Shown here piece after piece: positions 7,000 through 29,570 of a stretch of 64,000 nt of DNA (position 1 is its first letter; the number at the start of each line of letters is the position of its first letter). Where the stretch lies: the NCBI RefSeq assembly GCF_025211055.1, contig NZ_JAOARO010000018.1:1-64000 (forward strand). Reading direction: 5' to 3'. The notes beneath the pieces were generated by a model that saw only the letters and a program-made list of their open reading frames with translations, did no database searches and had not been told where the DNA came from. This stretch comes from Vallitalea sp. (lineage in GTDB: Bacteria > Bacillota > Clostridia > Lachnospirales > Vallitaleaceae). The position numbers were made by a program, and so were the translations under genes.

Positions 7000-7734
7000 T
7001 CAAACATATTGTATACTAATATTATTCCTTCCATTTCTTTTGGCAATATATAAATTATCATCAGCAATTTTTATTAGACTATCAGTATCCAATTTACAAT
7101 GACTTGTATGGACAATTCCTACACTAACAGCAAAATTAATTTCTTTTTCATTATATATTATACTGCTATTTAATTCTCTTCTAATTTTCTCCCCAATAAC
7201 ACTAGATTCATCTTTTGTTACATCATGTAATACAACTATGAATTCTTCTCCGCCAAATCTACCAATCAGTTCTTGCTCGGGTAATAACTGTTTTATTATT
7301 GTCCCTACTCTTTCAAGCACTTTATCTCCCCCAGCATGACCATAAGAATCATTAATACGTTTAAAATGGTCTAAGTCGAATATAATTACTGCTAAGCTAT
7401 CTTGTTTTTCAATTGAACATTTAACTAATTGCTCATATAATTCCATGAATGAAGTTCTATTCAACAACTTAGTCAATCCATCTATTTTAGATAATTTAAT
7501 TATTTCATCTTTCATTTTTATTATCTTTTTGTACACTAAAGACGTAGGAACAGAAGTTGATAGAGAAGCAACAGTTGCAGCTGAACAAGCTATTGTTATA
7601 GCATTTCTATAATTTTCATTTGTTGTTATCCTTTTAATAAGCAAAGTCAATAAACCAGATATGACTACACTAAAAAACCATATAAAAAATATTACCATCT
7701 GTACTGAATGCTTTCTTACTATTTTTTCAAACAT
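7000..7734 (-). CDS. membrane-bound diguanylate cyclase (GGDEF)
   Basis: Two hydrophobic segments (residues ~10-32 and ~42-60) precede a short linker and a full GGDEF domain with the GGEEF signature and the DLDHFKRIND metal/nucleotide loop, so c-di-GMP synthesis is expected. The inhibitory RxxD I-site five residues before GGEEF is absent (PEQELIGR). There is no recognisable sensor domain beyond the membrane hairpin. The ATG at 7734 is chosen because GAGGTGG lies upstream; a GTG three codons earlier is the alternative. Confidence 0.9.
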   Translation of the reverse strand: MFEKIVRKHSVQMVIFFIWFFSVVISGLLTLLIKRITTNENYRNAITIACSAATVASLSTSVPTSLVYKKIIKMKDEIIKLSKIDGLTKLLNRTSFMELYEQLVKCSIEKQDSLAVIIFDLDHFKRINDSYGHAGGDKVLERVGTIIKQLLPEQELIGRFGGEEFIVVLHDVTKDESSVIGEKIRRELNSSIIYNEKEINFAVSVGIVHTSHCKLDTDSLIKIADDNLYIAKRNGRNNISIQYV

Positions 7735-7935
7735 AATAGCCACCTCATCTGTTAGTATATTATATAATGTCTAACATATCTTACTCATATTATATATTAT
7801 TTTAGTATAATTTAATAGTTAAAAAATTACAATCTAGTTAATATAGACAGAATCTCTATTTATAATTTCAGAATAAATTCGTACTAAAAAATACAAGCCC
7901 TAGAACTTATTGATTCCATCTTCATATTCAAATAA

Positions 7936-8231
7936 TTACAAAAAGTATGTATCTGGTTCATAAGGGCTTATACCTATGTTGTTCTTATGTTTTAACTCCC
8001 ATTTTCTATAAGTTAAATTACATACTTTTTCATAGCCCATCTTTTTATAAAAGTTTATCGCTCTGTCATTACCTTTAATTACTTCAAGAATAACTGCCTA
8101 CATCCAATTTCTTTAGCTTTCTTCTCATGATATTCCATTAAAGTCTTAGCCAGTCCAATACCTCTTTCAGAAGTTATAATATAAATCTTGTAAAAATGAC
8201 TATTGTATATTGTTGGCAATTGTTTTATACT
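7936..8231 (-). pseudogene. frameshifted GNAT acetyltransferase fragment
   Basis: One frame reads SERGIGLAKTLMEYHEKKAKEIG, the acetyl-CoA binding segment (RGxGxA) of GNAT acetyltransferases. After a one-base slip near 8100 the coding sense continues in another frame as AVILEVIKGNDRAINFYKKMGYEKV, the classical NxxAxxFYxxxGF ending, to a TAA at 7936. The N-terminal half is missing, and the upstream end abuts the ribosome site of the RND transporter gene on the other strand. It is dead or dying. Confidence 0.75.
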
Positions 8232-8267
8232 TTTTTATACATTCAATTATATGAAGGAGGATAGTTT

Positions 8268-10718
8268 ATGGCCGAAAAAGAAAACAAGGTATCGTTTATG
8301 GAAAAAATATCAACTCAAATTATAGATAAGAGAAACGCCTTTTTTCTACTATATACAATACTAGTTATATTTTGTTTTTTTTCTAAATCATGGGTATATG
8401 TTAATAATGATATTACTACATATTTACCTGAAACAACTCAGACAAGGCAGGGGCTTACCATTATGAAAGAAGAGTTTATAACATATGGTACAGCAAAAGT
8501 CATGGTATCAAATATTACATATGACGGAGCACTATTAATAAAAGAGGATTTGGAAAAAATAGAAGGTATTTCTCGTATCGAGTTTGATGAAAGTATAGAT
8601 CATTACAAATTGGCATCAGCACTATTTTCAATATCATTCAAAGGTGAAGATAAAGATGAATTAACACAAAATGCCATGAAAGAAGTTCTCACTTATTTAG
8701 ATAACTACGATTATTATGTATCTAGTACCATTACCGAAGATTCAGTAACTTCATTAGAATCTGAAATAAAATTGGTTCTAGTTGTTGCTATATTTATTAT
8801 CTTGGGTGTTTTACTGTTCACTTCAAAAACTTATATGGAGATACCCGTTTTAGTACTTACATTTGGTATTGCTGCCATCCTTAATATGGGAACCCATTTC
8901 TTGTATGGGGAAATTTCATTTATATCTAACTCTATTGCGGTAGTTCTCCAATTAGCATTAGCTATTGATTATGCAATAATATTATGCCATAGATTCACTG
9001 AAGAAAGAGAGCATCTACCAGCAAGAGAAGCGGCAATTAAATCTCTTAGTAAAGCAATCCCTGAAATTTCGTCAAGTAGTTTGACAACAATATCTGGTTT
9101 AATGGCTTTGATGTTCATGCAGTTCAAACTAGGTTTTGATATGGGTCTTGTTTTGATAAAAGCTTTATTATTCAGCTTATTGATTGTTTTTACATTGATG
9201 CCAGGGCTATTAATGGTATTTAGTAACTCAATGGATAAAACTGTACATAAAAACTTTGTACCCTCAATAACTAATTGGGGAAAATTTGTAGTAAAGACAA
9301 GATATATCATTCCCCCACTATTTGTTGTTATTGTAGTAGGTGCACTTTACTTATCAAATCAAACTAATTATGTATATGGTTACAGTACTTTAACTACGGT
9401 AAAACAAAATGAGAATCAAATTGCTAAGAAAAAGATAGAAGAAACATTTGGAAGTAATAATCTATTAGCAATTATGGTACCAGCAGGTAATTATGAATTA
9501 GAGGGCAAGCTATTAAAGGATTATGAAAAACTAAAAGTAACAGATTCTGCTATTGGACTTGCAAACACTAAGGTAGATGACCGATATTATGTTACTGATA
9601 AATTGAATCCAAGACAATTTGCTGAATTAATAGACATAGATATAGAAATATCAAAATTACTATATCAAGCTTATGCTATCGAACAAGGCATATATAGCAA
9701 ATTGGTTAATGGGCTAGATGAATACGGCGTACCATTAATTGATATATTCATATTCCTATACAATCAAAAAGAAGCTGGATATTATAATTTAGATGAAGAA
9801 TTAGAAGACAAAATGAATGATTTGTATGAGAAGTTATATGAAGGTAAGGTTCAATTAGAAAGTGATAAATATTCAAGGTTACTACTGAATTTAAATATGC
9901 CCGAGGAAGGTGAAGAAGCTTTTAGCTGGTTAGATAAATTCCATACTATAGCAAATAAATATTATGATGAAGTACATTTCGCCGGTGCTACTACCAGTGA
10001 TAATGATTTAGGTGCATTTTTTGCAAAAGATAATCTAATTATTAGTATTCTATCAGGTTTATTTGTAATGATTATCTTATTATTTACCTTTAAATCAGCA
10101 GGTGTTCCAGTACTATTAGTTTTAACAATACAAGGTAGTATCTGGATCAACTTCTCTTTCCCAGTAATTCAAGATACCAATATATTCTTCATGAGTTATC
10201 TTGTTGTTACATCAATACAGATGGGTGCTACCATAGATTATGCTATAGTAATAACGAGCCGCTATATGGAATTAAAGAAATTCATGCCAATAAATAAGGC
10301 AATGATACAATCGCTGAATCAGGCTTTTCCTACTATCATTACATCAGGTACCATATTAGCCTCAGCTGGTATATTAATTGGTAGAATAACTTCTGACTAT
10401 GCAATATCTTCTATTGGAACCTGCTTGGGAAGAGGTACCATAATATCTCTCATCCTAGTTATGGGTGTTCTACCTCAAACACTGTTGTTTGGTGATAAAA
10501 TAATAGAAAAAACTGCTTTTGTGTTAAAAAGAAGAGGGATAATAACACTCCATAGAGGAAACCTAAAAATGAATGGTAGATTACAAGGATATATCTCAGG
10601 ATATGTAGATGCAGAAATAAAAGGTACTATTAAAGGCGAAGTAAAAGGTATCGTTGAAATGGGAAGCGTAACAACTGATAATAAAGAATTGGAAATGAGA
10701 GAGGAGGTTGTAGATTGA
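8268..10718 (+). CDS. RND/MMPL-family membrane transporter
   Basis: An 816-residue protein with two repeats of one membrane segment, a large outside loop and five membrane segments. The membrane blocks span ~18-38 with ~168-335, and ~350-372 with ~595-765. Conserved loop motifs around LQLALAIDYAIIL and IQMGATIDYAIVI include the intramembrane Asp pair used for proton coupling. MMPL proteins in Gram-positives export lipids or hydrophobic compounds. After the last membrane segment there is a soluble tail of about 60 residues with short Gly-rich repeats (GRLQGYISG, KGTIKGEVKG). GGAGG precedes the ATG. It overlaps the next gene by four bases. Confidence 0.88.
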   Translation: MAEKENKVSFMEKISTQIIDKRNAFFLLYTILVIFCFFSKSWVYVNNDITTYLPETTQTRQGLTIMKEEFITYGTAKVMVSNITYDGALLIKEDLEKIEGISRIEFDESIDHYKLASALFSISFKGEDKDELTQNAMKEVLTYLDNYDYYVSSTITEDSVTSLESEIKLVLVVAIFIILGVLLFTSKTYMEIPVLVLTFGIAAILNMGTHFLYGEISFISNSIAVVLQLALAIDYAIILCHRFTEEREHLPAREAAIKSLSKAIPEISSSSLTTISGLMALMFMQFKLGFDMGLVLIKALLFSLLIVFTLMPGLLMVFSNSMDKTVHKNFVPSITNWGKFVVKTRYIIPPLFVVIVVGALYLSNQTNYVYGYSTLTTVKQNENQIAKKKIEETFGSNNLLAIMVPAGNYELEGKLLKDYEKLKVTDSAIGLANTKVDDRYYVTDKLNPRQFAELIDIDIEISKLLYQAYAIEQGIYSKLVNGLDEYGVPLIDIFIFLYNQKEAGYYNLDEELEDKMNDLYEKLYEGKVQLESDKYSRLLLNLNMPEEGEEAFSWLDKFHTIANKYYDEVHFAGATTSDNDLGAFFAKDNLIISILSGLFVMIILLFTFKSAGVPVLLVLTIQGSIWINFSFPVIQDTNIFFMSYLVVTSIQMGATIDYAIVITSRYMELKKFMPINKAMIQSLNQAFPTIITSGTILASAGILIGRITSDYAISSIGTCLGRGTIISLILVMGVLPQTLLFGDKIIEKTAFVLKRRGIITLHRGNLKMNGRLQGYISGYVDAEIKGTIKGEVKGIVEMGSVTTDNKELEMREEVVD

Positions 10719-13700
10719 ATAGATTAAAAATATATCTATCTGTTGTATTATCAATGATTTTGTTATTCATTTTTAATTATGATTCTACAGCAGAAACAAC
10801 TTCTAATGTCATATACATACATACAGCTGAAGATTTACAAAAACTTTCAGAGAATTGTCGTCTAGATACCTTCTCCGAGAACATTATTGTTACATTGACA
10901 GGTGATATTGACCTATCTTCTATATCTTTTGAACCAATATCAAGCTTCTCTGGTATCTTTGAAGGAAGCAACTATACAATAAGTGGTTTAAACGCCTATG
11001 ATTCAGGTTCAAACCAAGGATTATTTAGGTATCTACAAGAAGATGGTATAATTAAAAATCTTACTGTTAAGGGCAATATTAGACCTAGCGGTACTAAGAA
11101 AGAAATAGGTGGGATTGTTGGTACTAACAGAGGACAAATCATTAATTGTTCTTTTAATGGAACTGTCAAAGGTTCAACCAGTATTGGAGGCATAGCTGGA
11201 TACAATGATAAATCAGGGAAAATTGCAAGTTGTAAGTCTTATGGTCTAATCATTGGAGAACATTACATAGGCGGAGTTGTTGGTCAAAATGTAGGTTATA
11301 TATCAGAATGTGTCAATAACAGTAAAGTAAATACAACAAATGATGGTAAAGTTCAAAACAAAGATATGGCATCTTATAATATAAAAGACATGAATATAGA
11401 ACAACTAAATTCAACTGAAAATATTGATGCTTTAACTGATACTGGGGGAGTTGTTGGTTATAATCAAGGTATTGTAGAATTAAGTGAAAATCGTGGTGCT
11501 ATAGGTTATCATCATGTAGGTTATAATATAGGTGGCATAATCGGTAGACAATCTGGTTATGTATCTGATTGTAATAATTATGGTATAGTCAAAGGACGTA
11601 AAGATATAGGTGGTGTCATCGGTCAAGCAGAACCCTCTATCCGCTTATTATTCTCAGAAGACACCTTAGAACAGATTGATAATGAGTTAGGTACTCTTAA
11701 TAAACAAGTCAATCAATTAATTAATGACAGCGAAAAATCTTCACAAACTATTTCAAGCAGACTGGATAATCTAAATAACCTTACTTCATCTGCTTCTAAT
11801 AAAATGCATGACCTAGCTAATTATACAACTAATTATATTGATGATTCAACAGCCGTAGCTAATACTGGTATAGATAGAATACGTCATACTATGGACCAAT
11901 TGGAGCCTATTCTTGATTCATTTGTAAATGCATCTGAAGAATTAACTAAAGGTTTTGATGAATTCAGAAAAGGCTTTGACCAACTTGCAAAATCATCAAA
12001 AGATATCAATAATAGCTTAAAAGATGTAGCTGATGCTTTTGATGACCTACATTTGGCGCATAACAATGCTAATACAGCTTTGGATAATATCACTGCAGCA
12101 ACTAAAATCATTCAAAAAGCTACTGAGAATTCTGATGATATGGAAAAAGCTATGAAAAAACTCAAAAATGGTTTGAGCGACCTTGATGATGCAACACAGG
12201 CAGGTATTAAAGCACTCGAAAAAATAGCAGATGCTTTAAAAGAAGTTGATAATCCACTAAGTACAGATTGGGATAAAATAAGTCAAGATATACAAGTTAA
12301 TCTTAAAACCATGAAAGAAAAGTATTCTAGTGCTAATACCAAAATAACTTTTGCTCTTGATGTATTTTATAAAGAATATACTGATGATCAAGCTCTTATT
12401 AGACAAGCATTTACATATTTTAACTTTGCTATTAAAGATTTGAAAGATCTATCTACTAACATGAATGATGCCTTAATAGATATGGAATATGCCTTAGAAG
12501 ACTTAGATCTTGCAACAGATGCTATCACTGAATCTATGGAATATATTTCCAAAGGTATGAAATATTTCACTAATTGTTCTACAGAATGTACCAATGCTAT
12601 GACAGATATAAAATCAATAGTTGAAGAGATTAATGATTATGAGAAATTACATATACCTAAGTTAAAAGATTATGTAACTGAAACAAGTGATTCCTTATTT
12701 CATGAAATAGATAGTATATCTGAAGAATTATCTATACTTAATGAAGAAGTAAAAGGATCATCTGATTCTTTTCACAAAAATATAAGAGCTGTCAACAAAC
12801 AGTTTGAGGTAATTGTTGATATTATAAGAGATGGATTGAATTCCTTATCTTTTGACAACAAAGATTTGTTTGAGGATATTTCAGACCAATCTCCAGAAGA
12901 AGAATCTATCAAGGAAAAAGGTGTAGTAAAAGAATGTTATAATGAAGGTGATGTCCTTGGAGATGTAAATATAGGCGGTATTATAGGTTCAATGGCAATT
13001 GAATATGACTTTGACCCCGAAGATGATATCATCAATAAAGGTAATACATCTTTCAATTTCAAATACCAGACAAAAGCTTTACTGATGTCATCTATCAACA
13101 AAGGTAATATTCAATCAAAAAAGAATTATGCTGGCGGTATAATAGGCAGAATGGATTTAGGTTTACTTATTAAAAGCGAAAATTATGGTTTTATAGAAAG
13201 TCTAGATGGTAATTACACAGGAGGTATAGTTGGTTCATCTAGTAGCGTAATTAGACAATGTTACTCTCTAAGCGAGCTTAGCGGTAGAGATTATGTGGGC
13301 GGAATAGCTGGATATGCTACTGACATTTATAATTGTTTTTCATTAGTAAAGGTTAATAAGTCTAATGAATTCACAGGTGCTATAGCAGGTGACATAAGTG
13401 GTAAAATGTTAAATAATTATTTTGTTAAAGGTAATATTGAAGGTGTAGACAGTATAAGTTATGGTGAAAAAGCTATTCCTCAATCTTATGGTGAATTTAT
13501 TCTAAATGAAGAACTACCAGAATCATTTCAATCATTCAAATTAACCTTTGTTGTTGATGATGAAATAGTTAAAGAAATACCATTTGAATATGGAGATTCA
13601 CTTGATGATAATAAACTCCCTGCAATACCTAAAAAAGAAGGATACTATAGTAACTGGCCATCATGTAATTATAACAACTTAACCTTTTCAAAAAAACTGG

Positions 13701-14176
13701 TAGCAATATATACACCCATGATACAAGTATTACCATCAGATAGTAACAATCCTCATCCCAAGTTGTTGGTAGAAGGAGCATTTGACCTTGATGATACTTT
13801 AAAAATAGAACAAGTAGAATCACCTACAAAAATGATTGCTACTCATAAAATCATTGAAGAGTGGTGTGTACAATTAAGTAAAGTATCTAATGAATCTTAC
13901 ACTTATAGAATTAAGAAGCCTAAAACAAAGAAAAAAATTATCTTATATAAAAAAGAAGGCAACAAATGGAAAATTGCTAAATCAAAAGTAGATGGTAGCT
14001 ATCTAACCTTTGAATCTAACTTAAATACCTTTAAGTTAGCATTTGTAGAAAAAAATATTGATATAAAATTATATATAGGTATGGGTTCTATCTTGATTAT
14101 GATACTTCTCATTTTTAAAAGAAAAATTAAAAAAAGAGCAAAGTCAAAAAAATATAAAATAAGACCTGTAGAATAA
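10715..14176 (+). CDS. surface protein: GLUG repeats, long coiled coil, GLUG repeats, C-terminal membrane anchor
   Basis: A 1153-residue secreted protein. The start is a TTG overlapping the transporter stop (TTGA), with GAGGAGG upstream. Order: signal segment 1-27; GLUG-type repeats (GGIVG/GGIAG with CxNxG) about 128-300; a long, Gly-poor helical coiled-coil region about 305-725; a second GLUG block about 728-910; a small beta domain resembling Listeria-Bacteroides (Flg_new-like) repeats about 940-995; a membrane helix about 1117-1135; and a Lys/Arg-rich tail. This gives an extracellular protein anchored once in the membrane. Tight coupling to the RND gene suggests they act together, perhaps as an outside adaptor or scaffold for export. 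Function is unproven. Confidence 0.75.
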   Translation: MNRLKIYLSVVLSMILLFIFNYDSTAETTSNVIYIHTAEDLQKLSENCRLDTFSENIIVTLTGDIDLSSISFEPISSFSGIFEGSNYTISGLNAYDSGSNQGLFRYLQEDGIIKNLTVKGNIRPSGTKKEIGGIVGTNRGQIINCSFNGTVKGSTSIGGIAGYNDKSGKIASCKSYGLIIGEHYIGGVVGQNVGYISECVNNSKVNTTNDGKVQNKDMASYNIKDMNIEQLNSTENIDALTDTGGVVGYNQGIVELSENRGAIGYHHVGYNIGGIIGRQSGYVSDCNNYGIVKGRKDIGGVIGQAEPSIRLLFSEDTLEQIDNELGTLNKQVNQLINDSEKSSQTISSRLDNLNNLTSSASNKMHDLANYTTNYIDDSTAVANTGIDRIRHTMDQLEPILDSFVNASEELTKGFDEFRKGFDQLAKSSKDINNSLKDVADAFDDLHLAHNNANTALDNITAATKIIQKATENSDDMEKAMKKLKNGLSDLDDATQAGIKALEKIADALKEVDNPLSTDWDKISQDIQVNLKTMKEKYSSANTKITFALDVFYKEYTDDQALIRQAFTYFNFAIKDLKDLSTNMNDALIDMEYALEDLDLATDAITESMEYISKGMKYFTNCSTECTNAMTDIKSIVEEINDYEKLHIPKLKDYVTETSDSLFHEIDSISEELSILNEEVKGSSDSFHKNIRAVNKQFEVIVDIIRDGLNSLSFDNKDLFEDISDQSPEEESIKEKGVVKECYNEGDVLGDVNIGGIIGSMAIEYDFDPEDDIINKGNTSFNFKYQTKALLMSSINKGNIQSKKNYAGGIIGRMDLGLLIKSENYGFIESLDGNYTGGIVGSSSSVIRQCYSLSELSGRDYVGGIAGYATDIYNCFSLVKVNKSNEFTGAIAGDISGKMLNNYFVKGNIEGVDSISYGEKAIPQSYGEFILNEELPESFQSFKLTFVVDDEIVKEIPFEYGDSLDDNKLPAIPKKEGYYSNWPSCNYNNLTFSKKLVAIYTPMIQVLPSDSNNPHPKLLVEGAFDLDDTLKIEQVESPTKMIATHKIIEEWCVQLSKVSNESYTYRIKKPKTKKKIILYKKEGNKWKIAKSKVDGSYLTFESNLNTFKLAFVEKNIDIKLYIGMGSILIMILLIFKRKIKKRAKSKKYKIRPVE

Positions 14177-14197
14177 AGTTATGTGTATCAATTATAA

Positions 14198-14275
14198 TGG
14201 GGTGTATCACAAGTGAATCTTATATTACAATTAGTTTTCCTAATCGTAAATATAATGTATTGTGATACAGCCCCA
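14198..14275. repeat. long imperfect hairpin, arms TGGGG-GTATCACAA / TTGTGATAC-CCCCA
   Basis: The outer arms (14198-14212 and 14260-14275) pair almost perfectly, and the interior pairs further (TTAC-ATTAG with CTAAT-GTAA). It lies between convergent genes. Neither side has a strong T-run, so it is not a textbook terminator. The arms resemble those of the hairpin at 53695-53760 (both read GGGGCT, then TC, then AATACATT on one strand), suggesting a dispersed hairpin family. Confidence 0.6.
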
Positions 14276-14405
14276 TGTTAAATTGCTAATATTAATTAAA
14301 ACCATATAGGTCTCTCTTGGTTTAAATGGTTTCTTCACCATCGCTATCCCTATCTATCCAGTTATAGAAAGCAGTAGGAATATAATAGAATCCTTTGTAA
14401 TCTTT

Positions 14406-16187
14406 TTATTTCCTAGTTATTTCAAAGTATGGAAACTCTACATCACTCTTATATGATCTGATACCAAATGCTCCTGAAAAACCTGGTATATATTTTGCTC
14501 CATATGAAGTATGTGAACCTGAAGTACTACCTAGATACTTATTGTTAATAACAACAGCATCTTCCTTTTCGCCTTCTAATGCTACAGTCAAGTTATACAT
14601 TGAACTTCCAAACATGTAACTAGTCTTAACAGTAACTTTTACACGACAATCATAAGGATCTATATAATCTGGTATATTGGCAGATAGTAAACCATTCCAT
14701 TTATTATTGGATCTTCCTATAATAACCGTTTTATTTTTAGGTGCTATACCTATATAGTACCCATAGTATTGATCATTACCAGTTCCTGGCTTTCTTACTC
14801 CAAGTACTATTCCTGCATTTGCAGAGTCGGCATATGTATTTGTTGTCTTAACCTGAAATCTACAAACAACAGTACGCATAGAAATATCAAGCTGATAATT
14901 ATCTCCATTAGAATCACAAGCTAATAACACTGGACCGTTACCAGTCTTTATATCATTCATAGTTGAACAAGGATTTAGTCCTAATACTTGCTGTTGAATT
15001 ATCTTAGACTCACTTTCTCCATAGAAATTAAAATACTTAGTTGAAGTGGCATCTCCTTTATTATTACCATAAAGAAGTCTATTCTCAAATTCCATAGTTG
15101 CTGTTGGCGGATTTAGTTTATTATCAATCATAACGTTTGCATTTTCAGCAGTAACCATTCCTTCAAGAGTACATACTAATTCTAATTCTTTTGTATATAC
15201 ACTTACAGTATCTTCATATGGATATACTAAGATATTACCTTTATAGGTTCCACTATTAATAAGAGCAATAGTTGATACCTCATAACCAAAATACTCATCT
15301 AAAGAAATTGATTTATTAGTTGCAACATCATAGCTGTAAGAATTAGTACCTGTTGCATCATTACTGTTTTTATTAACTACCTTATAATAAATCTTAGAAT
15401 TATTTGCATCATTTGCATAGACACCTAGAACTGAATTATCTCCTGCTTTTATAGTCTTTGTCTTATTATTAGCATTATATGTAATTGTAAAGTTTTCCCC
15501 ATATGCATCTGCTTTATAGGTATATCCTTTGGATAAATCAATATTTCTTGTGCCTTCTTTCAGATCTTTTTCATCTGAGTAGATTCTTTTAATAACGATA
15601 ACCGCTTGTTCTATTGGTGCATTATCTGTTGGGTTAAAGCTACCATTGCTACCTTTCATTATATTATTTTCATTAATATAATCTACAGCTTTTAAAGCCC
15701 AGTTAGCTATTAAATTCTTATCATTAATTGTTAAGACTTCATCAGTGCTTTTCATTTCTTCTCCAAAAAAATTATATACTTCACTAAGAGTCCTATAATA
15801 CATAACAGCCATCTGCTGTCTTGTTACTAATTCATTCGGTTTAGCCTGTTTGTTTGAACCTAACATTATCCCTAGTGCATTAGCTTTTAACACGTCAATA
15901 TCATCTGTATCATCAAAAGTGTCTATTGGTGCCTGTTTAACCACTTCACCTGTTATTGTTTCATACATTTTTACAACAAGTGATGCGAATTCTGCACGTG
16001 TAATTTTATCTTTCAAATTACTTGACATAAGTTTATAAGGCATAAGGTCATAGTAATAAGCCTCTTCGATCTCAGGTTGTGCCCATGAACTTGCTGATGA
16101 TACATCCCATCCCCCTGCAAAACTTGTTATACTTAATGCCATTACTACTAGCATAAGTATAATTATCTTGTGATTTTTCTTGAACAT
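14406..16187 (-). CDS. S-layer homology (SLH) domain surface protein
   Basis: The ATG at 16187 is chosen because AAGGAGG precedes it and it gives a proper signal peptide (residues 1-24, ending near SFAGG). Three SLH repeats follow (about 30-80, 85-140 and 150-205, with TRAEFA and TRQQMA), which bind pyruvylated wall polysaccharide. A beta-rich middle region follows, then a C-terminal domain (about 400-593) with the look of a concanavalin/LamG-type lectin fold. No catalytic motif is evident, so it is a wall-attached binding or structural protein. Downstream, the same frame stays open after the TAA for a Tyr/Trp-rich stretch to 14322, suggesting recent C-terminal truncation or readthrough. Confidence 0.85.
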   Translation of the reverse strand: MFKKNHKIIILMLVVMALSITSFAGGWDVSSASSWAQPEIEEAYYYDLMPYKLMSSNLKDKITRAEFASLVVKMYETITGEVVKQAPIDTFDDTDDIDVLKANALGIMLGSNKQAKPNELVTRQQMAVMYYRTLSEVYNFFGEEMKSTDEVLTINDKNLIANWALKAVDYINENNIMKGSNGSFNPTDNAPIEQAVIVIKRIYSDEKDLKEGTRNIDLSKGYTYKADAYGENFTITYNANNKTKTIKAGDNSVLGVYANDANNSKIYYKVVNKNSNDATGTNSYSYDVATNKSISLDEYFGYEVSTIALINSGTYKGNILVYPYEDTVSVYTKELELVCTLEGMVTAENANVMIDNKLNPPTATMEFENRLLYGNNKGDATSTKYFNFYGESESKIIQQQVLGLNPCSTMNDIKTGNGPVLLACDSNGDNYQLDISMRTVVCRFQVKTTNTYADSANAGIVLGVRKPGTGNDQYYGYYIGIAPKNKTVIIGRSNNKWNGLLSANIPDYIDPYDCRVKVTVKTSYMFGSSMYNLTVALEGEKEDAVVINNKYLGSTSGSHTSYGAKYIPGFSGAFGIRSYKSDVEFPYFEITRK

Positions 16188-16266
16188 ATTATTCCTCCTT
16201 GTAGGTTTTAATACTATACAATTTACTAAATATCTTTCACACATAAGTTTATTATATATTTTACCA

Positions 16267-16288
16267 ACATATTACATTTGTAATATGT
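16267..16288. promoter_or_regulatory. 22-bp palindrome ACATATTACA-TT-TGTAATATGT
   Basis: A perfect 10+10 bp inverted repeat with a 2-base centre, 80 bases upstream of the SLH-protein start. It could be an operator for that gene or a hairpin in its leader. Confidence 0.5.
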
Positions 16289-16401
16289 TTATTTTATCAT
16301 AATTGGATAAAGTTGTAAACATTTATAACCACTACTTCAGATTGTGTTTGTTACATTGCCTTTTACTAGCATATTGAATTCATCTCTTTAGAATAAAAAA
16401 G

Positions 16402-17121
16402 TTAATGTGCGAAATAGCTCAATACTTCAACAATAAATTTATTAATAAATGGTATATTGTAAATTACAGGTATAAAAAGAGCTGGTATGAGATTTATAGT
16501 TTTTATTTTCTTTATTTCCAGTATATTGATCCCTGTACTAAAGATAAGTATCCCTCCTATAATAGATATTTGATTAAGTATTACTGGTGTAGCATATGGT
16601 CCTATAAACTGAGCTAACAAAAATATAGTCCCCTGCCATATAAATAATATGACTCCTGATAGCATGATCCCAATCCCAAAGGTTGTTGCCAGTATCATAG
16701 ATGTAATTCCATCTAACATTGCATTTGTAAAAAGCAAAGTATTATCACCTTTTAATGCACTTTCTATAGGTCCTAATATAGATAATGTACCAACACAAAA
16801 AAGAAGTACAGCAGTTGTTAATCCTTCAATAAGTTTTTTATCATTGTTTCCACTAATTCTCTTACCTAACCTGTTAACCTTCTCTTCAATATCAATAGCT
16901 TCTCCTATTAGCCCACCAATCACCATACTTACAATAAATAAAAGTGGTTGATTATTTTTGCTAAGATTAGTAACTATCCATGTAATTCCCAATGAAATGG
17001 CTACAAGCCCCATTGCTTGATATAATATTGCTTTCTGTTTTTCTTTGATACCTTTTTTGAAGATAGCACCAACAGAACTTCCCATAATTATTGCACTTGT
17101 ATTGACTATTGTCCCTAACAT
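16402..17121 (-). CDS. DUF554 family membrane protein
   Basis: A 239-residue hydrophobic protein with about seven membrane segments. It starts MLGTIVNTSAIIMGSSVGA and contains the CVGTLSILGPIESALKGD motif characteristic of DUF554 (YdfK/YqgA-like) proteins, a family of putative transporters with no established substrate. AGGAGG lies seven bases before the ATG. It is monocistronic. Confidence 0.88.
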   Translation of the reverse strand: MLGTIVNTSAIIMGSSVGAIFKKGIKEKQKAILYQAMGLVAISLGITWIVTNLSKNNQPLLFIVSMVIGGLIGEAIDIEEKVNRLGKRISGNNDKKLIEGLTTAVLLFCVGTLSILGPIESALKGDNTLLFTNAMLDGITSMILATTFGIGIMLSGVILFIWQGTIFLLAQFIGPYATPVILNQISIIGGILIFSTGINILEIKKIKTINLIPALFIPVIYNIPFINKFIVEVLSYFAH

Positions 17122-20379: not shown

Positions 20380-20970
20380 TTATCTAATTCCTATTACTAC
20401 AAACATATCCTTATTATCGACTTGCTCCACTACTTCCAAACCCGATTCTGAAAAATATTCTTTTAAAATTTTCATATTAGGTAGATTATCTTTTTTAACC
20501 GTATTATCAACTCTTTTATGAAGATTGTTAATAGCTTTTCTACTTTGAGAATGGCAGATAGTAAGTTTTCCTCCTTTCTTTAATTTCTTTGAAAGCTTTT
20601 CTACTGCTTCTTCTTTGCAGTGAAAATGAGGAAACATGGAATAACAGATGATATAATCATAGTATGCTTCTTCACCTTTGTTTTTTAGTATATCATTGCA
20701 TTCAAAGAATACATTTTCGTAACTATTTTTCTTCTTAGCTACTTCTATCATACTTTCAGCCATATCAATAGCTTTGATTTTACCTGAACTAGTAACTCTT
20801 TTGTACAAACTTGGAATCAAAACCCCTGTTCCAGTACCCACATCCAGAATTCTGCTTCCAGCTTGTATATCTACCAAGTCCAGAATGTATTCTACTTTCT
20901 TCATATCATGGTTGCACATTTCATCCCACGAGTCTGCTACGCTATTAAAAAAATCTTTTTTTAATTTCAT
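20380..20970 (-). CDS. class I SAM-dependent methyltransferase
   Basis: A 196-residue protein. ILDVGTGTGVLIPSL (about 40-54) is the SAM-binding glycine loop, IKAIDMAESM the acidic loop and YDYIICYSMFPHF the post-II strand, matching Methyltransf_11/25-type enzymes. The substrate is not evident. It follows hypA by 51 bases on the same strand and could be co-transcribed with the hypB / Fe-S flavoprotein / hypA genes. GGAGAG lies before the ATG. Confidence 0.85.
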   Translation of the reverse strand: MKLKKDFFNSVADSWDEMCNHDMKKVEYILDLVDIQAGSRILDVGTGTGVLIPSLYKRVTSSGKIKAIDMAESMIEVAKKKNSYENVFFECNDILKNKGEEAYYDYIICYSMFPHFHCKEEAVEKLSKKLKKGGKLTICHSQSRKAINNLHKRVDNTVKKDNLPNMKILKEYFSESGLEVVEQVDNKDMFVVIGIR

Positions 20971-21021: not shown

Positions 21022-21363
21022 CTAACAAGCGACAATCTCCTTAATCATAAATTCTTTTCCGCTTAACAACTCCCAGTCTTTTAGCCCACAATGAGGACAT
21101 TTTCCTTTATTTTCTAAGAGATTGAAAACCTTATTGCAGTTTTTGCAAAGAGCGTTACCTGGTATAATCTCAATTTTCAATTTGGTATCCTGTAATAAGG
21201 TACCGTCAACTGCGGCAGGATAACATTCCTTGATATATCTTGGAATCATTGAAGATAATTCTCCAATCTGCAAAACTAATGAATCTATTTTAGTCAATTT
21301 ATTTTCCTGGGCAATATTTTGTACCGTTTTGACAACTTCAATTACAACTCCTAATTCATGCAA
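21022..21363 (-). CDS. hypA: HypA nickel metallochaperone
   Basis: Starting at the TTG at 21363 (AGGTGA upstream) gives a 113-residue protein beginning Met-His-Glu-Leu-Gly. The His at position 2 is the nickel ligand of HypA, and the length matches the family; a GTG three codons upstream would bury this His. Two CxxC motifs (CKNC and CPHC) form the structural zinc site. HypA delivers Ni2+ with HypB to the [NiFe]-hydrogenase large subunit, or in some organisms to urease. The gene follows a large Fe-S flavoprotein gene that separates it from hypB, and no hydrogenase genes lie in the window. Confidence 0.92.
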   Translation of the reverse strand: MHELGVVIEVVKTVQNIAQENKLTKIDSLVLQIGELSSMIPRYIKECYPAAVDGTLLQDTKLKIEIIPGNALCKNCNKVFNLLENKGKCPHCGLKDWELLSGKEFMIKEIVAC

Positions 21364-21391
21364 TTTACTCACCTAACCTTATTTGCTACTT

Positions 21392-24104: not shown

Positions 24105-24773
24105 CTATTGATTCCATTCTTTCACTTCAGTACGTATCCAATCAGCCCATTCATCAATCCCTTCCCCTGTCCTAGCGGATATTGGAATTATTTTGATATT
24201 TGGATTCAATTTTATAGCACGATTTTTTACAGCTTCTAAGTCAAAATCAAAATATTCAATGACATCCATTTTGTTTATTAGTAAAACATCCACTATTTTA
24301 AACATTAAAGGGTATTTAAGAGGTTTATCATCTCCCTCTGGTACGCTGAGAATCATGGCATTTTTTGATGAACCTGTGTCAAATTCAGCTGGACAGACTA
24401 GATTTCCAACATTTTCTAGAATAGCGAAATCAATTCCTTCTGTTCCAAGACCAACCAATCCTTGTTTTGTCATATCGGCATCAAGATGACACATACCTCC
24501 TGTGTGAAGTTGAATCACTTTTGCTCCTGTCTGAGAAATTGTGTTAGCATCAACATCTGAATCAATATCAGCTTCCATTACCCCGATATTCATTTCATCT
24601 TTCAAAGCGTTAATTGTTTTTGTAAGAGTTGTTGTCTTACCTGAACCTGGTGATGACATTAGATTCAATAAAAAAGTTTTCTCTTTTTTCAATTCTTCTC
24701 TAAGCAAGTCTGCTTGGCGATTATTATCCTCAAATACACTCTGCTTGATTTCTAGAACCTTGTATGTATCCAT
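24105..24773 (-). CDS. hypB: HypB nickel-insertion GTPase
   Basis: A 222-residue protein with P-loop SSPGSGKTT (Lys46), and the conserved metal site in the G domain: Cys95-His96 in GGMCHLD and Cys127 in NLVCPAEFD. NKMD is the guanine-specificity motif. HypB hydrolyses GTP while handing Ni2+ over with HypA. The N-terminal CxxCGC motif and His-rich stretch found in many HypB proteins are missing, so it is a short, non-storage form. AAGGAGAT precedes the ATG. It is the first gene of hypB / oxidoreductase / hypA, with a short palindrome about 85-105 bases upstream. Confidence 0.93.
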   Translation of the reverse strand: MDTYKVLEIKQSVFEDNNRQADLLREELKKEKTFLLNLMSSPGSGKTTTLTKTINALKDEMNIGVMEADIDSDVDANTISQTGAKVIQLHTGGMCHLDADMTKQGLVGLGTEGIDFAILENVGNLVCPAEFDTGSSKNAMILSVPEGDDKPLKYPLMFKIVDVLLINKMDVIEYFDFDLEAVKNRAIKLNPNIKIIPISARTGEGIDEWADWIRTEVKEWNQ

Positions 24774-25160
24774 TTTTATCCATCTCCTTATCTTATAGAT
24801 TTTAATTGTTAGTATTATGTCTCATAAATTTGTTAGTTTGGAATGTTTTTGACACATATTAGGTGCTTTGACCTAATGCTAAAAAATAGAAAGTAATTAA
24901 TTTACTTTTATAAATTTAATCCATTAAGATTGTTATTATTTTATCACTCTCAGTATATTTGAAAATGATATTATTGTCAAAAAAGCAAAAACCTTATAAA
25001 ATCAAGCTTTTATGACTTTCTATTTCAAGTTTGATTTACACACAAACGATACCTCTAATCCTATATATAATGCTGATTAGAGAGAATAATATATGAACAA
25101 ATGTAAACTATACTTGAAAGTAAAAAAGTTGCTAAATTGATTAAAATCATCTAACAACTC
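24774..25160. other. 387-base intergenic region upstream of hypB
   Basis: No gene seen. It contains the palindrome ATTAGGT-GCTTTG-ACCTAAT at 24858-24877 and AT-rich DNA. It also carries the promoter of the hypB operon, although I find no clear consensus -35/-10 pair. Confidence 0.5.
24858..24877. promoter_or_regulatory. palindrome ATTAGGT-N6-ACCTAAT upstream of hypB
   Basis: A perfect 7+7 bp inverted repeat with a 6-base centre, about 85 bases upstream of the hypB start. It is a candidate operator for a dimeric regulator; the adjacent MerR protein or an unseen nickel/redox regulator are possibilities. Confidence 0.45.
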
Positions 25161-26414
25161 CTAAAAATATCTGTTGAGTATATAGTTTGAGAACTTAATA
25201 CAGTTATTTATTGATACTGTACTCATAATTTCACCAGCTATATATATGTTATTTTTACCTTGTATTTCTTCTATTTTATCATAGAATCCTTTTTGCAGAG
25301 TACGGGTATCTACGTATGGACACTGATGCCAACTCTTAAATTGATAAAGTCTCGGATTAAGAAATCCCAATTTCAATAAATCACTTTTAATAATCTTTAA
25401 TGATGCTTCTTTGGATCTTTTAGGTGAATTATAAGCATAAACCATTACCAGTTCTTCCCCATCACTTGAATCCCATCTAGAATTCCATATAATAACATGT
25501 CCTCTATTTTCTATAGATAGATTTTCTAGTACAAAACCACTTTTTTTTGGGATCTTTTCAACTATAAAAGCATAAACATTAAAATCTTGGTATTTTATGG
25601 AACTAAAGTAATGATTCATTTGGTAATTTGTATCACAAAGATTAGAAAATTGATTGAGTAAAGCAGTAATAATAACCCTATCATATTCTAATTGTTCAAA
25701 ATTAGTATGAACACATACTTTTCCGTTATCAGTCTTAGTGATTTCTTTAACATTCTGTGTCAACCTGATATCTTTTATCTTATGCTTCAAGGAATTTATG
25801 AATGTTGAAACTCCTTTCTCCCATGTATAGAATTCAGGAAGTTCCATAAAAGACATTAATGTATCATAATCCAATATCCTAAGGACATAAAGTGCAGGTA
25901 TAACATTAATATCTCCTAAACCATAGCTTGTAAAATAATTGACGTATACTGTCTTTAAAACCCTAAAATCATTCATATCACACCACTTTGAAAAAGGAAT
26001 CATTAGAGAATCTTCTATGCTGTGAATATTCACTCTTTTTAAAGATTTGTATTCATTAAGAATATGTGGGAATCTGTCTAGTTCTTCAACAAAATCATCT
26101 AAATCTTCTTTTGGAATCTGCATGATTCTATTACCACTTGCATCATAATTGACCCTTGATAATTTGGGTCCATCATTTTTGATATTATAAGTCTTCATTA
26201 ATTCCTTAAGACTATTTTGAGAAGGCAGTCCAAAAAGAGCACCTAGCTCATAAGACTTTCCTTTATACCATATTGTATGTAATTTACCTCCTACCCTATT
26301 ATCTTTTTCAAAAACAGTAACCTTTCCGTATCCCTTTTCTTGTAGACCTTCCGCTATTACAAGCCCTGAAATACCCCCACCGATTACAGCGACCTTACAA
26401 TTAGTTTTCTTCAT
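25161..26414 (-). CDS. FAD-dependent amine-oxidase/protoporphyrinogen-oxidase-like protein
   Basis: A 417-residue flavoprotein. The N-terminus carries the dinucleotide-binding motif GGGISGLVIAEGL followed by VTVFEKDNRVGGKLHT, the signature of the amine oxidase/PPO/phytoene desaturase superfamily. The C-terminal IYIAGE segment is the second FAD contact. The substrate is not evident. The ATG at 26414 (GGGGTGAT upstream) lies 14 bases inside the preceding transposase-like gene, so the two are translationally coupled, which is unusual for an IS-derived gene. It ends 390 bases before hypB. Confidence 0.8.
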   Translation of the reverse strand: MKKTNCKVAVIGGGISGLVIAEGLQEKGYGKVTVFEKDNRVGGKLHTIWYKGKSYELGALFGLPSQNSLKELMKTYNIKNDGPKLSRVNYDASGNRIMQIPKEDLDDFVEELDRFPHILNEYKSLKRVNIHSIEDSLMIPFSKWCDMNDFRVLKTVYVNYFTSYGLGDINVIPALYVLRILDYDTLMSFMELPEFYTWEKGVSTFINSLKHKIKDIRLTQNVKEITKTDNGKVCVHTNFEQLEYDRVIITALLNQFSNLCDTNYQMNHYFSSIKYQDFNVYAFIVEKIPKKSGFVLENLSIENRGHVIIWNSRWDSSDGEELVMVYAYNSPKRSKEASLKIIKSDLLKLGFLNPRLYQFKSWHQCPYVDTRTLQKGFYDKIEEIQGKNNIYIAGEIMSTVSINNCIKFSNYILNRYF

Positions 26415-27468
26415 TGTAATCACCCCGCTTTAGAGAATTAATCAAAGTAAGAATCCAAAGTGGTAATGTTTCAAAATCAACATTATTATGAGCTACTCTT
26501 TCTAGGATAACCTTAGCAGGTACTTTTCCTTCATTGCAGCCACCAGATATCTTTCTAGCGAAATTATAATGTCTAAGGAATTTGTGTAATGCTCGTTCTA
26601 CCTTATTGAAAGAGTCAATATTTTCTTTAGTAATTCTACTATAGAACTCTTTTACCAATAACTTATTAAATTCATCCATATCATTGAAGATAGAATTGTT
26701 TTCATGTGAAATGAACTTGTGATTAATATTAAAATCTTCCATTATATTCCTATACTTATTGTTTTTAATAAAATAGGGTATGAATTCTCTTGTTTTTTCT
26801 GTTAATAAATTATCAATGTCTAAGTTCAAAGTGCTCATTAAGTAACCTAGTTTCAGCTCGAAATAATCCCACATATCTATGTCTTGTTTTTTATTATATA
26901 TCTTAACAGAACCCCATTTTGAATAAGTGTCATAGAGAGTATATTGATATATTTTGCCAATACCTTCATATGTACCTATAAAATCGATTCTTTGAATAAC
27001 TAGATAACCTACATATGACTTTTTTTTGTTATCAAAACATTTTATTAATTTTCTATTATTTCTATTCCCGCCAGAATTTTGTTTTTTATTTTTAGAATAT
27101 TGTAGTCTTTGGACTTTTTTTGATAGGTTGTTCCTTTTTAAGACATTATAAATCCCCGATACCCCGATATCATAACCCTCAGCTTTTAACTCATAATAGA
27201 TTCTATTGGGTCCATCTTCAGGAAATCTTTGTACATATGATAAGATTTCATTTTCTATTGTTTTATTAACTTTATTAGGCATTTTAGGCTTTTTGTGTTC
27301 TTTGATCTCTAGTCCCATCATACCATGTTTTAGATAAGCTCTTTTCCAATTGTAATATGTAGTTCTTGAAATTCCAAACAAATCACATGTCTCAGAAACA
27401 TTGTTCTCTTTCAAAGCATGTTTCAGAATCATATATTTGTTATATGAATTAAAAACTTCTGCTTTCAT
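26401..27468 (-). CDS. helix-turn-helix protein derived from an IS481-like DDE transposase
   Basis: A 355-residue protein. Residues ~10-60 form an HTH_29-type domain (VSETCDLFGISRTTYYNWK), ~70-120 a second winged helix, and ~150-325 an integrase-like fold. In IS481 transposases the triad sits in a first Asp, a TDNGxEF motif and an NGxVERxN motif. Here the first Asp (D162) remains, TDNG is TEKT (223-226) and NGxVER is NDMDEF (262-267), so the active site looks degraded. No terminal inverted repeats or second copy are seen. Overlap with the flavin-oxidase gene suggests domestication, perhaps as a DNA-binding regulator. Confidence 0.65.
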   Translation of the reverse strand: MKAEVFNSYNKYMILKHALKENNVSETCDLFGISRTTYYNWKRAYLKHGMMGLEIKEHKKPKMPNKVNKTIENEILSYVQRFPEDGPNRIYYELKAEGYDIGVSGIYNVLKRNNLSKKVQRLQYSKNKKQNSGGNRNNRKLIKCFDNKKKSYVGYLVIQRIDFIGTYEGIGKIYQYTLYDTYSKWGSVKIYNKKQDIDMWDYFELKLGYLMSTLNLDIDNLLTEKTREFIPYFIKNNKYRNIMEDFNINHKFISHENNSIFNDMDEFNKLLVKEFYSRITKENIDSFNKVERALHKFLRHYNFARKISGGCNEGKVPAKVILERVAHNNVDFETLPLWILTLINSLKRGDYNEEN

Positions 27469-27806: not shown

Positions 27807-28430
27807 ATGGAAAATTGGCTTGAATGGCTAGGTTATTTAGCTTCACTTATTGTTTTAGTATCTTTACTTATGAGTTCAATAATAAAATTAAGATGGATAA
27901 GTCTACTAGGTTCTTTTTTATTTTCATTGTATGGTTTTTTGATAGGTGCTTTACCTGTAGGGTTTATGAATCTAGGTATTTGCTTTATCAATATCTATTT
28001 CTTATTCAAGATATATAATTATAAGGAATATTTTAAGATACTACCAATCAAGAAACGTTCCCTTTATTATGACTATTTTCTTGATTTTTATAGGGATGAG
28101 ATAAATAAATTCCACGAATCAGAGTTTAGTATAGAAAATTCAGATGTAGCTTTCTATATTCTAAGAAACATGGTTCCAGCAGGAATATTCATGTCAGCAC
28201 AACTAAATGATAACACCCTTAAGATAAATCTGGATTTTGTAGTTCCGGAATACAGGGATTTTAAGATAGCAAATTATATTTTTGATAAGAATAAAGAATA
28301 TTTTACTGATAAAGGCTACTATAACCTTGTTAGTTTTTCTTCTAATGAGAAGCATATAAAATATTTATTGAAGATGGGATTTCAATTAGATTCTTTTGAA
28401 GGTGAAAAATGCTATATGAAATCGTTATAA
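27807..28430 (+). CDS. YgjV-like membrane domain fused to a GNAT-type acetyltransferase domain
   Basis: A 207-residue protein. Residues 1-75 contain three membrane segments with a pattern like the small YgjV/lactate-permease-associated membrane family (WLGYLASLIVLVSLLMSS, LGSFLFSLYGFLIGALP). Residues ~85-207 look like a compact GNAT domain: FVVPEYRDFKIANYIF corresponds to the acetyl-CoA loop, and NEKHIKYLLKMGFQ to the closing helix and strand. The canonical R/QxxGxG/A is weak (RDFKIA), so activity is uncertain. AGAGGAG precedes the ATG; two hairpins follow the stop. Confidence 0.55.
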   Translation: MENWLEWLGYLASLIVLVSLLMSSIIKLRWISLLGSFLFSLYGFLIGALPVGFMNLGICFINIYFLFKIYNYKEYFKILPIKKRSLYYDYFLDFYRDEINKFHESEFSIENSDVAFYILRNMVPAGIFMSAQLNDNTLKINLDFVVPEYRDFKIANYIFDKNKEYFTDKGYYNLVSFSSNEKHIKYLLKMGFQLDSFEGEKCYMKSL

Positions 28431-28520: not shown

Positions 28521-29570
28521 CTATGCTTTTATTGCCCATCGCATTTTAGTAGAACGAGCACGACTATTAATACGACATTCCTCTGCTGATGGTCTAATAA
28601 TGTCAGGAGCAATTTTTTGGTAGACACCTTCACGTAATAAACGCTTAAAGGATTTTTTAACAAGACGATCTTCACCTGAATGAAAAGATAATATTGCTAC
28701 TCGTCCTCCTGGAGCGAGGCTATCAGGTAGTTTTTCCAAAAATTCATATAAAACTTCGTATTCATTATTGACATCAATTCTTAAAGCTTGAAAAGATCTT
28801 TGACAGGATTTTTTAATCTCATCTTTTCTTTTATCTTTTGGAATAAATTGTAGAGCCTCTTTTATTATACATTGCAACTGAGTTGTTGTAATAATATTTG
28901 TTCCTTTTTTTATTTCAGATATAATAGCACGAGAGATTACTTCTGCATAAGGTTCATCTGCATTTTCTATTAACATACCTTGTAACTCCTCTTGTGAAAT
29001 ATCTTTTAAGCACTCTGCTGCGGATATGCCCTTATCCGGATTTAGTCGTAAATCTAGTGGTCCTTCATTCTTATATGAAAATCCTCTTTCAGGATTATCT
29101 ATTTGCATTGAAGATACCCCTAAATCAGCTAATACAAAATTCAGTGGTCCTGACTCAGCTGTTATTTCATCTATGTTGGAAAAGTTCATTTGCTTGATAG
29201 TTAATATTTTACCATCATAACCTAACTTCTCTAAGCGTTCTCTAGTACGTACTAATTCAATAGGATCAACATCAAGTGCATACAAGTGTCCTTTTGAGTC
29301 TAGACATTTAAGCATTTCCAAGGTATGACCACCATAACCTAATGTTGCATCTAATCCAATTTGTCCAGGAACTATTTGTAAGAATTCCAATATTTCTTTC
29401 ACGCAAATTGAAATATGCATACCCGCAGGTGTACTACCTTTACGAATCACTTTTGCTACTGTATCGCCATATTTTTCTGGTTGAAGTTCCTTGTATTTTT
29501 CTTTATAAGATCTAGGATGAGTCCCTTTATATCTAACACGTCGCTTATGTTTTTGTTCTTGCCTATCCAT
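28521..29570 (-). CDS. RsmH-family 16S rRNA (cytosine-N4) methyltransferase, extended form
   Basis: A 349-residue enzyme. GLDATLGYGGHTLEML is the SAM loop, and FVLADLGVSSMQID followed by RGFSY is the RsmH signature (N4-methylation of C1402 in 16S rRNA). It has about 45 extra N-terminal residues, rich in Lys/Arg, compared with the ~310-residue RsmH. It is not next to mraZ, ftsL or pbp genes, the usual site of rsmH, so it is probably a second copy with a possibly different target. AGAGAGG lies before the ATG. It is monocistronic. Confidence 0.85.
   Translation of the reverse strand: MDRQEQKHKRRVRYKGTHPRSYKEKYKELQPEKYGDTVAKVIRKGSTPAGMHISICVKEILEFLQIVPGQIGLDATLGYGGHTLEMLKCLDSKGHLYALDVDPIELVRTRERLEKLGYDGKILTIKQMNFSNIDEITAESGPLNFVLADLGVSSMQIDNPERGFSYKNEGPLDLRLNPDKGISAAECLKDISQEELQGMLIENADEPYAEVISRAIISEIKKGTNIITTTQLQCIIKEALQFIPKDKRKDEIKKSCQRSFQALRIDVNNEYEVLYEFLEKLPDSLAPGGRVAILSFHSGEDRLVKKSFKRLLREGVYQKIAPDIIRPSAEECRINSRARSTKMRWAIKA

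Follow-up and report, generated by a model that had tools for sequence, protein, structure and literature searches.

An IS481-derived protein as candidate regulator of a predicted fatty-acid isomerase/reductase operon in Bacillota

A transposase-like gene that runs into the start of a flavoenzyme gene raises the question of whether it is an insertion sequence caught beside a metabolic gene or a former transposase now used for gene control. The locus lies in a stretch of 64,000 nucleotides from Vallitalea sp. (contig NZ_JAOARO010000018.1, positions 1 to 64,000), here called the window, and its features are collected in Table 1. An earlier note on the sequence had proposed either a transposase-turned-regulator or a DNA-associated redox system formed by the two proteins. 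The reading preferred here, with a probability of about 0.72, is that the IS481-derived gene is an exapted transposase that would act as a regulator, binding paired sites and controlling an operon for a predicted polyunsaturated fatty-acid (PUFA) isomerase and reductase.

Table 1. Features of the IS481-like locus and the adjoining reductase genes in the window
Feature	Coordinates	Strand	Remarks
IS481-derived regulator candidate, 355 aa	26401..27468	-	two N-terminal HTH domains and a degenerate integrase-like domain
First HTH domain, residues 8-52	27313..27447	-	Pfam HTH_28/HTH_23; helices H8-21, H24-31, H35-52
Second HTH domain, residues 69-112	27133..27264	-	Pfam HTH_32; PDB profile match
Integrase-like region, catalytic triad lost	26539..27021	-	R/E/D at the D/D/E columns; boundaries approximate
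Gene overlap, 14 nt counted from ATG	26401..26414	-	regulator 3' end and FAD gene start
FAD protein gene	25161..26414	-	ATG start; GTG nine bases upstream also possible
Distal 22-bp site TGTAAACTATACTTGAAAGTAA	25102..25123	+	sole genome match with <3 mismatches
Proximal 22-bp site TGTAAATCAAACTTGAAATAGA	25019..25040	-	inverted, 83 bp from distal; also found by a generic repeat finder (pair I6)
-35 element TTGACA	24975..24980	-	predicted hypB-isrA promoter
-10 element TATACT	24952..24957	-	predicted hypB-isrA promoter; 17-bp spacer
hypB (nickel GTPase)	24105..24773	-	Pfam cobW/HypB/UreG; relative in L030 meets TIGR00073
IsrA-type Fe-S/GltD-like flavoprotein, 897 aa	21392..24085	-	CxC motifs at residues 188 and 262-269
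hypA (nickel chaperone)	21022..21372	-	tblastn to relatives; relative in L030 is Pfam HypA
Methyltransferase-like gene	20380..20970	-	also beside some relatives' clusters

Lost catalysis and a fixed genomic partner

The NCBIfam model transpos_IS481 (NF033577) matches the window protein with an E value of 1.6e-37 and 129.5 bits, well under the 224-bit equivalog cutoff, and the IS481-type alignment spans residues 11 to 320. The protein resembles IS481 transposases in its length, its two N-terminal HTH domains and its integrase-like core and differs from them in the loss of the DDE residues, the lack of terminal repeats, the single copy and the fixed genomic partner. The two DNA-binding domains and the integrase-like region read earlier from the sequence are borne out by Pfam HTH matches and by the IS481 alignment. 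The second HTH region shows a weak likeness to the Sleeping Beauty transposase (chain 5unk, E = 0.0063, PDB profile). An AlphaFold2 model built from two sequences has a mean pLDDT of 42, only its two N-terminal helix bundles being usable; the first HTH domain forms a block with a pLDDT of about 59 to 69.

Relatives were sought with the window protein or a nine-row profile in overlapping samples of 196 relatives, 391 class, 299 phylum and 392 order members and 154 plus 153 further relatives. Flanking DNA was read for 22 loci of the first survey and 18 of the second, which gives 40 non-IS loci in 36 genomes; sequence kinship inflates every locus count. The FAD gene lies immediately downstream of the IS481-like gene at 40/40 of these loci (22/22 and 18/18), so the pair is not peculiar to one strain; Vallitalea sp. 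McD1.14 (L024) is one carrier, and one further genome (G027, locus L035) holds fragments of both genes. An IsrA-type gene is present in the stretch read at 36/40 loci (19/22 in the first survey, 17/18 in the second), usually together with HypB, HypA and DUF5692 genes. Two arrangements occur. In type A, that of the window, the regulator, FAD and reductase genes lie mostly on the same strand; in type B, the regulator and FAD genes are mostly transcribed divergently from hypB-isrA-hypA-DUF5692. Both are found together in four genomes (G001, G002, G622 and G660), and the window protein shows 26 to 31% identity with five type B proteins. Trees of the 19 first-survey loci (of 22) that hold isrA have 13/16 splits in common for the IS481-like and FAD proteins, compared to at most 2 after label shuffling, and 7/16 for the IS481-like and IsrA-type proteins, compared to at most 3.

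The 14-base overlap of the two genes was read correctly from the open reading frames. The translational coupling deduced from it stands in part: the overlap is real in the window and measures 4 to 23 nt in 10/11 type A loci, but it is limited to some lineages, and type B is mostly gapped (7 to 16 nt in 10/11 loci). In a relative with 93% identity (L029, 10274-10300), the ATG of the FAD gene is replaced by ATA, and translation would have to begin at a GTG located 23 nt upstream of where the regulator gene ends.

Alignment with three intact IS481 transposases places R at the first catalytic D, E at the second D and D at the E, and it upholds the replacement of the DDE motifs by TEKT and NDMDEF. 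The three residues were tabulated for the 22 first-survey loci, with the 18 second-survey loci outside the table. D, D and E are kept in 0/21, 0/22 and 0/22 assessable members, whereas all three are kept in 3/3 IS481 controls, elements that the searches also retrieved (G327, with five copies, G349 and G658). In type A the first D is replaced by R in 10 members and by S in one, and in type B by W in 10, one member being truncated; the second D and the E are gone in 22/22, with acidic residues sometimes near. The dN/dS ratio of the gene is 0.12 against the 93%-identical relative and 0.12 to 0.20 over ten pairs (Nei-Gojobori), indicating purifying selection, and that of the HTH part is 0.07 to 0.14, a tighter constraint than on the C-terminal part in 9/10 pairs.

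It is highly improbable that the gene is a degenerate or still mobile IS481 element and only a chance neighbor of the flavoprotein gene. Its best family model is IS481, and distant IS481 elements do occur on plasmids and phages; all plasmid and phage matches to the protein are below 60% identity, and the 20 listed, at 25 to 29%, are mostly annotated as IS481 or other transposases, some being DNA-binding proteins or unannotated. A live IS is rejected on account of the single copy, the lost triad and the absent terminal repeats. The 3.78-Mb genome (99.7% complete) contains the open reading frame a single time, the triad is lost in all assessed members, and the dN/dS values point the same way. 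Neither multiple copies nor convincing flanking repeats were found: 2.95 kb contains 27 weak, mostly A+T-rich inverted pairs, the best pair around both genes (25086-25103/27479-27496, 89% over 18 nt) being within background, in keeping with the lack of visible terminal repeats noticed before. The constant FAD neighbor speaks against mobility as well, since the IS controls G327 and G349 have none within the stretch read. Two other candidates were rejected: PADLOC matches for a defense system are just weak and partial, and viral carriage has one weak 52-residue match in viral_contigs.

Paired sites beside the hypB-isrA promoter

Two inverted copies of a 22-bp site with the consensus TGTAAAC-N8-AAAGTAA are present in 20 first-survey intergenic regions, mostly 82 to 86 bp apart. 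The alignment of nine divergent type B regions contains two blocks that are inverted copies of TGTAAACA-N7-AAAGTAA, and the two sites are found in 9/9 of these regions at spacings of 83 to 86. In type A the motif lies between the FAD gene and hypB, and the partner spacing is 82 to 84 in 8/11 loci and 71, 92 and 104 in the other three. The type B matrix comprises 16/18 sites, L078 being omitted because its sites are near copies of those of L077, and the type A matrix comprises nine distal sites, omitting L029 (identical to the window) and L084. The counts leave out L055, which abuts a contig edge; hand scoring of L054 gave a spacing of 69 and a center at about -81.5, and this locus stands outside the 20.

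Mean identity over 11 loci is 0.74 to 0.80 for the sites and 0.35 to 0.42 for the spacers, which have diverged in sequence while keeping a nearly fixed length of 60 to 64 bp. Shuffle counts for the type A proximal sites range from 0 to 608 per 1000; weak sites are those of L053 (608, no better than shuffles), L079 (68), L052 (47) and L081 (21). Across the window's genome the motif is no more frequent (16 matches in all) than a reversed-pattern control (18). Helical phasing of the two sites is suggestive only, since periods of 10.5 to 12.5 fit the distinct spacings of the outliers about equally. The spacer in the window holds an inverted repeat of its own (CTCTAATC/GATTAGAG, 25053-25082). Several type A loci have terminator-like hairpins next to the sites: by eye, the interval from the proximal site to the -35 element (24981-25018 in the window, with equivalents in L080 and L082) holds hairpins with T runs, and a further one immediately precedes the distal site.

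The sites keep a constant relation to a predicted promoter. Type A promoters are TTGACA-N17/18-TATAcT-like in 10/11 loci, with TTGATC in L084, and type B promoters are of a TTG type with TATAAT in 9/9. The center of the proximal site lies at -85.5 to -88.5 in 11/11 type A loci and at -77.5 to -79.5 in 9/9 type B loci. An operator-like site that is conserved and keeps its place relative to a promoter is expected of a regulator, and such a site is present here. In the second survey, searched with matrices fixed beforehand, 13/18 loci show a strong pair, defined by a score sum of at least 22, compared to a maximum of 14.2 for pairs without a true site in common. Ten of the 13 spacings are 82 to 84, one is 92 and two are 95, and the center lies at -77.5 to -87.5 in 12/13 loci, the exception being L169 (search range roughly -57 to -108). 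By the same rule, the remaining five loci have weak pairs (L173 and L174) or none (L162, L168 and L172). When wider spacings were allowed post hoc, L162 showed 14/14 and 13/14 matches 126 bp apart, L172 two 13/14 matches at 112, L174 two 13/14 matches at 111 and L168 one good site.

Sites are found at 7/7 isrA loci beside an IS481-like gene versus 0/23 without the gene, the 30 loci scanned being drawn from 42 isrA matches; in three of the 23 (L092-L094), the DNA read stops short of the region upstream of the cluster. In extended stretches at 13 isrA loci (L118-L130, including the loci of L092-L094), no pair contains a site that matches at least 93%, and the corresponding pair table also has many weak chance pairs in loci with the IS481-like gene. 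Two observations speak against the proposed control of the operon: the genome G001 has one isrA copy without sites, and the sites persist in L028 and L084, where hypB-isrA is not downstream. In L167 the pair lies upstream of hypB although the regulator and FAD genes are 5 kb away beyond hypA, which makes the sites separable from the 3' end of the FAD gene. The paired inverted sites beside a conserved promoter on the hypB-isrA side, limited to loci with the IS481-like gene, are reported here as new.

Two of these loci have other genes beside the sites. In L028 (G001, 7510-8835), the FAD gene is followed by sites and promoter and then by small membrane-protein and glycerol-kinase-like genes. In L174 (G858, 10102-16445), the regulator-FAD pair and the site pair are followed by genes for an amine-oxidase/CrtI-type FAD protein, a ferredoxin-type reductase, an unmatched 372-aa protein and a DUF5692 protein, possibly a nonhomologous replacement of the hypB-isrA reductase.

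The co-occurrence at 7/7 versus 0/23 loci and the persistence of sites with the gene in L028 and L084 make it quite unlikely that an unrelated host regulator binds the site pair while the IS481-like protein is otherwise occupied, for example in organizing DNA or as a flavoenzyme partner. In favor of such a regulator, the type A loci show no clear site before the IS481-like gene itself, and binding of the sites by its protein is what we infer. A protein with two predicted HTH domains would, for its part, suit a bipartite 22-bp site.

The predicted operon and its substrate

Downstream of the sites lies a gene for an IsrA-type protein. Such a protein is recognized by a GltD-like FAD/NAD domain, 4Fe-4S sites, CxC motifs and hypA, hypB and DUF5692 neighbors, all of which are found here; the Acetobacterium IsrA served as a reference by description. 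The name of the methyltransferase-like gene beyond hypA was drawn from a sequence motif and is presumably apt. Also near the cluster are a gene for a 349-aa MraW/RsmH-type methyltransferase (28521-29570) and one for a small protein (27807-28430) with weak Imp-YgjV membrane and acetyltransferase matches, both under the Pfam cutoffs.

IsrA is described as a putative isoprene reductase in PMC10134865, which reports HypA beside 73%, HypB beside 56%, DUF5692 beside 40% and TetR beside 21% of 988 IsrA homologs and a host of the isr operon without NiFe-hydrogenase. The present cluster is like the isr operon and IsrA homologs in its IsrA-type protein, hypA, hypB, DUF5692 neighbors and CxC motifs, and the Acetobacterium operon has an extra ferredoxin. 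A NiFe-hydrogenase large subunit was not found in the window's genome. The IsrA-type protein would reduce a conjugated diene and may contain nickel.

The FAD protein carries an FAD-binding motif, and its sole full-length PDB match is 2b9w (E = 1.9e-62), which we take to be the structure of the Propionibacterium acnes PUFA isomerase; a type B partner matches with an E value of 8.8e-22. In the alignment with 2b9w, Arg87 and Phe189 fall at residues 88 and 193, presumably the substrate-gate residues Arg88 and Phe193, and their equivalents are kept in 22/22 and 21/22 first-survey FAD proteins, respectively. Compared to the PUFA isomerase as described in PMC13365329, the full-length match is the likeness; the difference is that the FAD protein sits with regulator and reductase genes and its isomerase activity is predicted. 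We infer that the two enzymes may act in sequence, the FAD protein isomerizing a substrate to a conjugated diene and the IsrA-type protein then reducing it. The DNA-associated redox system of the earlier note finds no support, given the match of the flavoprotein to a fatty-acid isomerase and the location of the sites upstream of reductase genes.

The full-length isomerase match and the kept gate positions make it somewhat unlikely that the two enzymes use another substrate, such as isoprene-like dienes or carotenoid-like or sterol-like lipids. Such a substrate would agree with the putative role of IsrA as an isoprene reductase in PMC10134865 and with L174, where isrA gives way to genes for an amine-oxidase/CrtI-type FAD protein and a ferredoxin-type reductase. 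The main text of that paper does not contain the terms transposase, linole or isomerase.

Proposed mechanism and comparison with known systems

The proposal of a transposase-turned-regulator is supported by the catalytic loss, the dN/dS values, the phylum-wide linkage, the congruence of the IS481-like and FAD trees and the operator-like pair traveling with the gene. The protein would have kept the two-HTH, bipartite DNA-recognition end of an IS481-type DDE transposase while losing catalysis. In dimeric or higher form, much as a transposase holds both element ends, it would bind the two inverted 22-bp sites, whose TGT tips face each other at a distance of about eight helical turns. So bound, it would control the hypB-isrA promoter, possibly activating it with a fatty-acid ligand. 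The products of hypB-isrA and the FAD isomerase would conjugate and then reduce the double bonds of unsaturated fatty acids. A fuller version, in which exaptation in Bacillota has turned a whole DDE transposase into the dedicated regulator of a fatty-acid biohydrogenation operon linked to nickel chaperones, and in which this regulator occupies two inverted end-like sites in the manner of a frozen synaptic complex, is tentative and falls short of even odds. The facing tips are as in a circle junction, unlike those around an inserted element, and the mapped ends of an active IS481 element in G327 have the TG tip in common with the sites, the letters otherwise being different; an origin of the sites from terminal repeats is for these reasons only a hypothesis.

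Given an intact -35 element downstream of the sites, activation is slightly but not decisively favored over repression. The same exapted regulator might instead be a repressor relieved by fatty acid, or an insulator of divergent promoters, a reading that is plausible although we lean against it. The type B sites are flanked by two divergent promoter-like sequences, and regulators are near clusters that lack the IS481-like gene: GntR-FCD in L119, L121 and L123, TetR in L118 and L124 and MarR in L125, the GntR gene of L123 being divergent from hypB like the type B regulator. GntR and TetR regulators are often repressors. The centers at -78 to -88, however, leave the -35 and -10 elements free, and a simple repression loop does not fit easily with two sites that are both upstream of the promoter.

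Among open-licence papers, no description of this gene family as a regulator was found. If the exapted regulator proposed here is real, a complete cut-and-paste transposase would have given rise to a bacterial transcription factor; the operator of this factor could be mapped, and its geometry may retain the layout of a transposon synapse. The system would provide a testable candidate gene set and switch for anaerobic PUFA isomerization and saturation and would propose a physiological role for IsrA-type proteins with HypA and HypB where no NiFe-hydrogenase is detected. Exapted transposon proteins serve as regulators in eukaryotes, as the FHY3/FAR1-type factors, and in bacteria, as the TnpB-derived TldR. 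The candidate regulator would share with these the reuse of a nuclease-dead transposon protein for gene control and would differ from them in being of the DDE integrase type, in apparently finding its targets through HTH domains of its own and in being encoded within a metabolic gene cluster.
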